From contig NZ_FOTQ01000001.1 in the NCBI RefSeq assembly GCF_900114635.1, positions 558,001 through 622,000 of the forward strand: DNA of 64,000 nucleotides, given 5' to 3'. Below, piece after piece: positions 11,693 to 22,058 of the stretch (within the stretch, counting starts at the first letter, position 1; each line of letters begins with the position of its first letter). The notes under the pieces are model-generated. The model was not told the DNA's origin and made no database searches. It saw only the letters and a program-made list of their open reading frames with translations. A program made the position numbers and the translations under genes. The stretch comes from Shimia aestuarii (GTDB lineage: Bacteria > Pseudomonadota > Alphaproteobacteria > Rhodobacterales > Rhodobacteraceae).

Positions 11693-11693
<1 letters not shown>
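10959..11693 (-). CDS. Secreted FG-GAP/VCBS-like repeat protein
   Basis: A 244-residue protein with a signal peptide (MRRALAVLILALAVPAVALA). It contains at least two calcium-binding-like FG-GAP/VCBS turns (DLDNDGRPEVVVVESD and DLDGDGKVELAYID), typical of integrin-type beta-propeller blades. It also has a CPAC motif at about residue 58 and two further cysteines. Its ATGA overlap with the upstream ferredoxin gene indicates translational coupling. The function is unknown; extracytoplasmic location is the firmest inference. It converges on the ClpP-like gene. Confidence 0.75.
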
Positions 11694-12034
<341 letters not shown>

Positions 12035-12110
12035 TTATTTGACGTCCGCCTGTACCTAGTCATGCACGCCCCGCGCTGCCAGTCCCTTTTGCGACATCGC
12101 GGGAACAACC

Positions 12111-12138
12111 TTGCGACAAAATCCAAATGTTCTATATT
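12111..12138 (+). promoter_or_regulatory. Predicted promoter of the SOS-boxed ORF
   Basis: TTGCGA (12111-12116) and TATATT (12133-12138) are separated by 16 bases, a good sigma-70 match. A start about 7-8 bases after the -10 would fall at about 12145-12146, the A of the ATG, giving a leaderless mRNA. The predicted LexA box overlaps the -10. Confidence 0.6.
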
Positions 12139-12143
12139 TGTTC
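12129..12143 (+). promoter_or_regulatory. Predicted LexA (SOS) box, GTTC-N7-GTTC
   Basis: GTTCTATATTTGTTC matches the alphaproteobacterial LexA consensus GTTC-N7-GTTC exactly. It overlaps the -10 element and ends two bases before the ATG of the OB-fold ORF, so bound LexA would block both polymerase and the transcript start. Confidence 0.75.
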
Positions 12144-12145
12144 CT

Positions 12146-12517
12146 ATGCTGACCATTTCCCCCTCCCGCGCCCCTTATGACAACTGGCCCCGCCCCCCCT
12201 CGGCGTTGACCGCCGACCGCCTTGTCGAGCCGCCCAACGGTGCCCGCATCACCGTGGCCGGGCTGGTGATTCTGCGCCAACGTCCGGGCACCGCCAAGGG
12301 CGTAATCTTCCTCACCCTCGAGGACGAAACCGGGGTGGTGAACATCATTGTCTGGCGCAAGCGCTATGAACAGTTCCGCCGCGCGGTGATCGCCGGGCGG
12401 ATGCTGCGCGTCACCGGGCAGCTTCAGCGTGAAAACAACGTCACCCATGTGATTGCCGAACGGATCGAGGATATCTCGCCCATGCTCGACAGACTTCTGA
12501 GCGGGAACACACCCTGA
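12146..12517 (+). CDS. Stand-alone OB-fold protein homologous to the C-terminus of error-prone polymerase DnaE2
   Basis: A 123-residue protein. From about residue 32 it reads like the C-terminal OB domain of DnaE2/ImuC: ITVAGLVILRQRPGTAKGVI, then a block with LEDETGVVNIIVW, and a closing VIAERIEDISPML. No polymerase, imuA or imuB sequence precedes it; the upstream neighbour is a divergent ferredoxin gene 130 bases away. An exact LexA box abuts the ATG and no Shine-Dalgarno is present, consistent with a leaderless SOS transcript. It is either a decayed dnaE2 remnant that kept its operator or an independent single-strand-DNA-binding SOS factor; the intact reading frame favours function. Confidence 0.75.
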   Translation: MLTISPSRAPYDNWPRPPSALTADRLVEPPNGARITVAGLVILRQRPGTAKGVIFLTLEDETGVVNIIVWRKRYEQFRRAVIAGRMLRVTGQLQRENNVTHVIAERIEDISPMLDRLLSGNTP

Positions 12518-20684: not shown

Positions 20685-22058
20685 ATGTTCCTCTCTGTCT
20701 TCGACATGTTCAAAGTGGGCGTCGGCCCTTCCTCCTCGCACACCATGGGCCCCATGGTCGCCGCCGCCCGTTTTCTTGACACCATGCGCGCGTCCCCCTT
20801 TGATTTCCACGGTCTTCGCGCTTCTCTGCATGGCTCTCTGGCCTTTACCGGCGTCGGCCACGCCACCGACCGCGCCACCATTCTTGGCCTCGCCGGATTC
20901 CAGCCTGACAGCTATGACCACGACAAGGCCGAAGCCATTCTGGCGCAGATCAACGCAACCCACACAGTCCACCCCGAGAGCCTGCCGGCCCTGCATTTCA
21001 ACCCGCAGGACGATCTGAGGTTCGATTTTGGCCCCAACCTGCCCGGCCACGCCAATGGCATGATCCTCATGGCCACCGACGCCCAGGGCGACGTGATCCT
21101 GCAGGAAACCTACTATTCCATCGGCGGCGGCTTCGTGATGACCGAAGCCGAACTCGCCGCCGGCAAGGACACCGACGAAGGCGCCCCTGTCCCCTTTCCC
21201 TTCAAGTCTGCAGCAGAAATGCTGGAAATGGCCCAGATCTCGGGCAAATCCATTGCCGAGATGAAAAAGGCCAACGAGATTTCGCGCGGCTGTACCGAGA
21301 GCCTCGCCAAAGGCTGTGCCCGCCTTTGGCAGGTCATGAATGACTGTATCGACCGCGGCCTGACCACCGACGGAACCCTGCCCGGTGGGCTCGGCGTAAA
21401 GCGCCGCGCCAAATCCATCCATGACGCGCTTCAGGCCGAACGTGGCATGAACCTCAATGCGCCCCACACGATCAACGACTGGATGAGCGCCTATGCCATG
21501 GCGGTGAACGAGGAGAACGCCGCCGGGGGACAGGTCGTCACCGCCCCCACCAACGGTGCGGCCGGGGTATTGCCGGCCGTGATCCGCTACTGGCTCGACC
21601 ACGTGCCCGGTGCCACGGCCTCGCGCATCGACGAATTCCTGCTCACCGCAGCCGCGATTGGCGGCCTCGTCAAATTCAACGCGTCGATCTCGGGCGCAGA
21701 AGCCGGCTGCCAGGCCGAGGTCGGTTCCGCTTCGGCCATGGCCGCCGCCGGTCTCTGCGCCGTCATGGGCGGCACGCCTGAACAGGTCGAAAACGCCGCA
21801 GAAATCGCCCTGGAACACCATCTCGGCATGACTTGCGACCCGGTCAAGGGGTTGGTGCAGGTGCCTTGTATCGAACGCAACGGGCTGGGCGCGATCAAGG
21901 CCGTCTCCGCCGCCAGCCTTGCCTTGCGGGGCGACGGAACCCATTTCGTACCTCTGGATGCGGTCATCGAAACCATGCGTCAAACCGGGGCGGACATGCA
22001 CGAGAAGTACAAGGAAACCTCGCTGGGGGGACTCGCCGTCAACGTTCCCAACTGCTGA
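20685..22058 (+). CDS. sdaA: L-serine ammonia-lyase (L-serine dehydratase), iron-sulfur type
   Basis: A 457-residue single-chain enzyme that deaminates L-serine to pyruvate and ammonia using an oxygen-sensitive [4Fe-4S] cluster. The beta domain opens with [19 protein letters not shown]; the catalytic alpha domain has [12 protein letters not shown] and [16 protein letters not shown], whose cysteines include cluster ligands. Length matches the proteobacterial fused type. It lies downstream of an 11-bp repeat array, a possible regulatory site. Confidence 0.95.

Follow-up and report, generated by a model that had tools for sequence, protein, structure and literature searches.

The ImuA–ImuB–DnaE2 (ImuC) mutasome cassette is one of the known systems closest to the locus described here, and most DnaE2 polymerases contain their OB domain within a single chain. 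A C-family polymerase divided between two genes is known from cyanobacteria, in which DnaE is encoded in two genes and the halves are rejoined by split-intein splicing. Among mutasome proteins, a split has been described for ImuB, which occurs as iPolY plus ImuB-C in DnaE2X systems (available text of a 2026 survey; PMC12926913), and several DnaE2 proteins lack the OB domain according to the accessible portion of the study by Timinskas et al. (PMC3919608).

In Shimia aestuarii, the OB domain is a separate gene with its own control. The gene lies in a stretch of 64 000 nucleotides (C18:558001-622000) that was analysed as a whole and is referred to below as the window (Table 1). In this genome and in relatives from the same family dnaE2 is split: the OB domain is absent from the polymerase body, the two halves co-occur and their LexA boxes are conserved.

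Table 1. Features of the split dnaE2 and associated genes; positions are those of the window unless a contig is named
Feature	Position	Strand	Basis or remark
Standalone OB-fold gene, 123 aa, detached DnaE2 C-terminal OB domain (ATG to end of stop codon)	12146..12517	+	NF004225, PF01336, AlphaFold2 model
LexA (SOS) box GTTC-N7-GTTC, GTTCTATATTTGTTC	12129..12143	+	Exact match; exact in 117/124 listed homologues
-10-like TATATT within the LexA box	12133..12138	+	Read from sequence
-35-like TTGCGA, 16 nt before the -10	12111..12116	+	Read from sequence
Predicted leaderless transcription start, A of ATG	12146	+	Inferred from spacing
Divergent 2Fe-2S ferredoxin gene, conserved neighbour of the OB gene	11693..12016	-	PF00111
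dnaE2 body, 985 aa	C18:973114-976035		DnaE2-model positions 6-945
imuB, same genome	C18:534576-536231		Passes both Pfam Y-polymerase cut-offs

The OB gene and its LexA-boxed promoter

The top family match of the OB protein is the C-terminal part of NF004225/PRK05672, a model for error-prone DNA polymerase, of which it covers positions 943-1040 of 1047 (112.4 bits, E = 1.8e-32); this bears out the origin from the DnaE2 OB domain proposed in a preliminary description of this DNA. It also matches PF01336 of Pfam with 50.8 bits (cut-off 27), and weaker matches were obtained to the OB portions of DnaE1, tRNA synthetases, SSB and others, the score of 14.2 bits against the SSB family PF00436 lying below the cut-off of 26. 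The best AlphaFold2 model has a mean pLDDT of 86.8 (64.9-82.3 for the other four models), with low confidence at residues 1-10 and intermediate confidence at 41-50, and contains five strands (34-43, 53-60, 63-70, 86-96 and 99-109). The nearest solved structures reach TM-scores of approximately 0.4-0.6 by query length and are OB folds from Stn1/Ten1, RPA and tRNA synthetases, and a sequence search of solved structures matched Pol III alpha weakly (E = 0.094).

The frame of the OB gene is open upstream as far as 11540, and this extension overlaps the divergent ferredoxin gene. A ferredoxin gene is found upstream on the opposite strand at 121 of the 124 listed OB loci, the exceptions being L155, which lies at a contig end, and the loci of genomes G194 and G083. 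Approximately 40 nt 5' of the LexA box, at 12084-12095, a CCCTTTTGCGAC-like stretch recurs in several relatives and may belong to the promoter of the ferredoxin gene. The N-terminal WPxPP sequence was considered as a docking motif and rejected: it is present in 99 of 122 OB proteins, yet L150, L153 and L159 lack it in genomes bearing a body.

The box of the OB gene is followed by CT and then by the ATG, an arrangement already recognized in the preliminary description. Exact GTTC-N7-GTTC sequences occur twice in the window against 2.00 expected, so that the box cannot serve as evidence by itself and was tested through conservation; the second copy (GTTCATGCCACGTTC, minus strand, 21438-21452) is within chance expectation. 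Genome-wide, 144 exact boxes were counted (70 + 74), with 62 + 55 in the backward-read control. A stricter pattern comprising the box, two nucleotides and ATG around a TATNTTT core, with at most one mismatch, occurs once in this genome, at the OB gene, and never in the backward-read control. The same pattern is present in ten of 18 genomes (11 matches, none in the backward control), the other eight being without it because their boxes diverge more.

It is conservation in homologues that makes the box significant. The 117 boxed genes among the 124 listed standalone OB genes comprise the 115 of the promoter table together with L155, with an exact box near a contig start, and L169, whose box lies 683 nt from the match with an ATG 5 nt after it. 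Besides these two, the promoter table omits the seven genes without an exact box in the same orientation (L021, L035, L097, L098, L099, L125 and L146). Among the seven, the boxes of L035 and L146 have one mismatch each, that of L098 is exact and reversed in orientation (GAACACAAAGTGAAC), and no LexA box was found at the OB genes of L021, L097, L099 and L125. The OB genes of L097, L098, L099 and L125, which have lost the usual box, share the C-terminus AGDQP. In a set of 80 named loci that partly overlaps the 115, 79 carry an exact box; the named relatives among these 80 kept loci include Shimia, Roseovarius, Mameliella, Roseivivax, Phaeobacter, Ruegeria, Leisingera and Marivita.

The position of the start codon relative to the box is likewise maintained. 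The start lies 2 nt past the box in 75 of the 115 boxed loci and 1-3 nt past it in 93, in 92 of which it is ATG; the remaining 22 show another spacing or, at L152, no start. Over all 115, ATG was found 111 times and GTG three times. The T, A and T columns and the final two T columns of the -10 are conserved at 82-92%, with a variable fourth base, and TTG is kept at the place of the -35 (T 91%, then T/G, then G 77%). The column consensus reads TTGC from 18 nt 5' of the box, then TGTTCTATNTTTGTTC, TC and ATG. In the S. aestuarii gene, 7 nt separate the end of TATATT from the A of the ATG. This distance fits a start at the ATG and there is no space for a Shine–Dalgarno sequence before it, which supports a leaderless mRNA. 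The gene is thus probably leaderless, with transcription starting at or adjoining the ATG as previously suggested from the promoter layout, and is predicted to be under LexA control and induced by DNA damage.

The truncated dnaE2 and its co-occurrence with the OB gene

The DnaE2 model matches three places in the S. aestuarii genome. One is the dnaE2 body (1235 bits against a cut-off of 939), another is also long and was taken as DnaE1, and the third is the OB gene, which covers model positions 943-1041. The body and the OB gene are complementary, with almost no overlap in model positions. Pfam domains of the body comprise PHP, polymerase, finger and HhH, a Pfam search of it revealed no OB fold, and the chain terminates shortly past LTLRRHPVALLRDLLTP, within the linker that precedes the OB domain. 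The PDIDVDFEH motif is retained in all 72 split bodies. Within 160 nt upstream of these, an exact box is present in 20 and the one-mismatch form GAAC-N7-GAAT in 51, G083 alone having neither, whereas neither form occurs in any of 1440 control segments taken from inside bodies; the body of S. aestuarii itself has the one-mismatch form.

The preliminary description had called the OB gene an orphan, with no polymerase body, imuA or imuB nearby. The window indeed contains none of the three, and the label of orphan nevertheless has to be given up, since the same genome carries a dnaE2 without exactly this domain and the halves co-occur across the family. Where a full-length dnaE2 was to be sought elsewhere in the genome, an OB-less one lies 403 kb away; of the mutasome partners sought with it, imuB and an imuA-like gene are present.

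Rejoining of the halves by a split intein was considered and rejected. The motif HN[CST] is absent from the first 45 residues of all 202 OB proteins inspected, and the 47 of 72 bodies that were measured extend 9-90 residues past LTLRxHP, which is too short for an intein half.

Among 295 family genomes, a match to the OB protein at E <= 1e-5 is present in 255, and the number with a body match at E <= 1e-150 is likewise 255. They contain at least 124 standalone OB genes and at least 121 long OB-less dnaE2 bodies. Among the matches listed, both halves are found in 117 genomes, the OB gene only in seven, the body only in four and neither in 167, a figure that takes in genomes with frames outside those listed. 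The Fisher p value for co-occurrence, 1e-67, ignores kinship among the genomes and is therefore unusable as a probability, and the co-occurrence may reflect shared ancestry. The 124 OB genes are those left of 130 fetched loci after removal of L173 (no OB match), L168, L170 and L171 (located at contig starts, each the 3' end of a fused gene) and L172 and L174 (fused); L173 was also left out of the body counts, being the same place as L054.

The genomes with one half were inspected individually. In five of those with the OB gene only (G061, G068, G118, G158 and G292), the assembly is fragmented and contains pieces of a body. In G051, an assembly of seven contigs that is 100% complete, the OB gene, imuA and imuB are present, and the sole match of the body search is DnaE1-like, with no dnaE2 body. 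G237 possesses an intact boxed OB gene (C33:517874-518194), a degraded split body with two stops (C11:322449-323408) and a different, fused DnaE2 (C26:105049-107973) adjoined by imuB-like and imuA-like matches, which looks like the replacement of one mutasome by another. The four body-only genomes (G044, G064, G162 and G180) gave no OB match of this kind at E <= 1, and the same is true of G098 and G142, in each of which the body was matched in two pieces; the six are draft assemblies, with 100-490 contigs each.

In 289 genomes from across the class, OB matches outside the family fall mostly within frames of approximately 900-1800 aa. The frame is shorter (132-894 aa) at ten places, of which at least five lie no more than 1.5 kb from the beginning of a contig. 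Assignment of the OB gene to plasmids or phages was not upheld: in the 40 highest-ranking of 799 plasmid records the match falls under the name 'error-prone DNA polymerase' or in unannotated records or stretches, and a phage search yielded two weak matches. Genome G035 (L151, L331, L359 and L276), which identical coordinates and a 100% imuA match with plasmid pDSHI03 identify as Dinoroseobacter shibae, carries both forms: the split pair is on its largest contig, and a complete imuA-imuB-dnaE2 cassette is on the plasmid.

Origin of the split and dispersal of the mutasome genes

In a tree of 97 bodies the split state requires three changes, compared with 22.4 in shuffles, and 70 split bodies form one group (support value 99) that includes one fused row, L178 of G292. 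The body of L178 is placed within the split group and its OB domain pairs with a distant fused one; it is perhaps a chimera, a re-fusion, a long-branch effect or contamination in a draft genome. The next rows outside the group are G194 and G083, which are split, and G004 and G276, which are fused, in an order that is weakly resolved. The OB tree, which is built on 85 columns and lacks nine of the 25 fused rows as well as L165 (missed by the motif), is poorly resolved, and a grouping of the 123 split OB domains is not rejected by it (p-AU 0.753).

G194 looks transitional. Its body and OB gene share a strand, the OB gene lying approximately 1 kb further downstream with its own box and ATG, and the OB protein retains the entire ancestral tail (...HPRDQAKRLFPSRDFH); between the halves is a gene on the opposite strand that resembles dimethylargininase (E = 4.4e-57, with a score short of the curated cut-off). 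The OB protein of G083 retains the tail in part, and both genomes may represent either early stages of the split or splits that arose in parallel. Of the 25 fused DnaE2 proteins, 21 terminate in the tail LFPSRDFH, and an SRDFH terminus is found in none of the 72 split bodies. Five split bodies (L062, L063, L067, L302 and L316) carry an HPR[NSDE] remnant near their end, as if the OB domain had been excised from inside dnaE2. Nearly all split halves are without the conserved C-terminal tail seen in fused DnaE2, so the enzyme may work differently from the fused one.

Matches to the imuA-like gene and to imuB were obtained in all 28 genomes searched. In S. aestuarii, the imuA-like gene is on contig C17, where an exact box precedes its match by 67 nt, and it scores 53.5 bits against the NCBI ImuA model, for which the cut-off is 150. 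Across genomes, an exact box lies 5-60 nt before the imuB match at all 23 loci L341-L363. With boxes at the body, the OB gene, imuB and the imuA-like gene, the mutasome genes of this genome occupy four boxed places. By comparison, imuB is closely upstream of fused dnaE2 in 20 of 25 cases (2-389 nt) and is found within the 600-1500 nt flanks of one of the 72 split bodies. The fused genes nearest to the split group, L172 (G276) and L174 (G004), have their own exact box and no imuB in the 3.1-3.4 kb upstream, as if the cassette had been dispersed ahead of the splitting of dnaE2.

Readings of the split and comparison with known systems

The best explanation of these observations, to which a probability of roughly 0.74 is assigned, is a DnaE2 split into two subunits, the OB half being supplied by a LexA-blocked and probably leaderless gene and the halves making up, with ImuA and ImuB, a working polymerase. 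The fission of dnaE2 in the Roseobacter group has left one gene for a PHP–polymerase–HhH body ending in the pre-OB linker and another for the OB domain, which follows a few N-terminal residues similar to the linker. Upon DNA damage LexA would be taken off both boxed half-genes, and the OB gene would be transcribed from the promoter with its -10 inside the box, with the 5' end of the mRNA at the ATG or directly adjoining it. The OB protein, which we infer to join the truncated DnaE2 physically, would then form with it and with ImuA and ImuB, encoded at separate loci, a working error-prone polymerase. A more speculative and rather doubtful extension is that the OB subunit acts as an on-switch, the body, with its mostly imperfect LexA box, being perhaps present early or at a low level while mutagenic synthesis awaits the OB protein translated from the perfect-box, leaderless mRNA. 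In Caulobacter, the timing of induction is tied to promoter strength and not to the quality of the LexA box (PMC12700426, in its accessible part); the difference between the OB and body boxes alone does not, for this reason, predict gating.

The preliminary description had suggested a free single-strand-binding regulator. According to this reading, which is now considered unlikely, the OB protein has left DnaE2 and serves, alone or with DnaE1, ImuB or RecA filaments, as an SOS-induced ssDNA-binding factor, the truncated DnaE2 needing no OB domain. G051 and G237, with an intact OB gene and no intact body of this kind, would agree with it, as would the several DnaE2 proteins without an OB domain in the available text of Timinskas et al. 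(PMC3919608) and the presence of Stn1/Ten1 and RPA among the nearest solved folds of the OB model. Against it, 117 of the 124 listed OB genes accompany a long OB-less body, the sequence is nearer to the OB domain of DnaE2 than to SSB, and LexA boxes are found on both halves. The detached part of a split DnaE2 is thus the better reading. A role as a brake, in which the OB protein would compete with DnaE1 or DnaE2 for ssDNA or for ImuB and so limit mutagenic synthesis, is very improbable, as it leaves the OB-less bodies of the same genomes unexplained.

Selection on the OB gene bears on whether it is functional at all. Four close pairs gave dN/dS values (NG86) of 0.06, 0.14, 0.20 and 0.24, and the S. 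aestuarii gene gave 0.20/1.23 against that of a genus relative. The 7762 pairs with dS of 0.05-1.0 have a median of 0.34 and a maximum of 0.81, the higher values in wide pairs being attributed to a dS that is likely to be compressed in distant GC-rich lineages; purifying selection is claimed from the four close pairs alone and is observed in these close relatives. A start is present and the frame is open at 114 of the 115 boxed loci, and 47 columns are invariant among 66 aligned OB rows. That the gene is a decaying dnaE2 fragment retained by chance after fission, as its being part of a larger gene and the values from the wide pairs might suggest, is the least probable reading of all in the face of the close-pair values, the at least 124 homologues, the invariant columns and the conserved box and start; the earlier judgement that it is not debris stands, its homologues being both intact and, in 117 cases, boxed.

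No report of a split DnaE2 pair was found in the open-access literature, and the pair is likewise unreported in open-access work on LexA and leaderless genes of this group; subscription journals and supplements were outside the scope of both searches. The available text of the 2026 survey (PMC12926913) does not describe a split DnaE2, the accessible main text of PMC3919608 does not contain the names Rhodobacter, Roseobacter, Ruegeria or Rhodobacterales, and 'imu', 'dnaE' and 'OB-fold' are absent from the main text, as available and supplements aside, of the D. shibae network paper (PMC6473078). For genome annotation, roseobacter bodies that look truncated and an OB gene that looks orphaned are very probably a pair. 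As the OB domain is a separate small gene, deleting, titrating or retiming that gene can show what it contributes to damage-induced mutagenesis, and, if the OB half gates the polymerase, this would be a new way of restraining mutagenic synthesis.

Compared with SSB and other small OB-fold proteins, with which it shares a common fold, the OB protein has a far stronger homology to the OB domain of DnaE2. The OB-less DnaE2 proteins of PMC3919608 resemble the bodies described here, and the occurrence of the missing domain as another gene is not stated in the available text. Split ImuB, as far as the accessible part of the 2026 survey describes it, is alike in that a mutasome protein is encoded in two genes, and unlike in that the protein and the lineages are different. 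Split DnaE of cyanobacteria is likewise a C-family polymerase from two genes, whereas no signs of an intein are seen here (202 OB proteins and 47 of 72 bodies). With the ImuA–ImuB–DnaE2 cassette, finally, the system has in common a DnaE2-type polymerase, imuA and imuB in the genome and LexA boxes, and it differs in that the OB domain has a gene of its own and the mutasome genes are dispersed.
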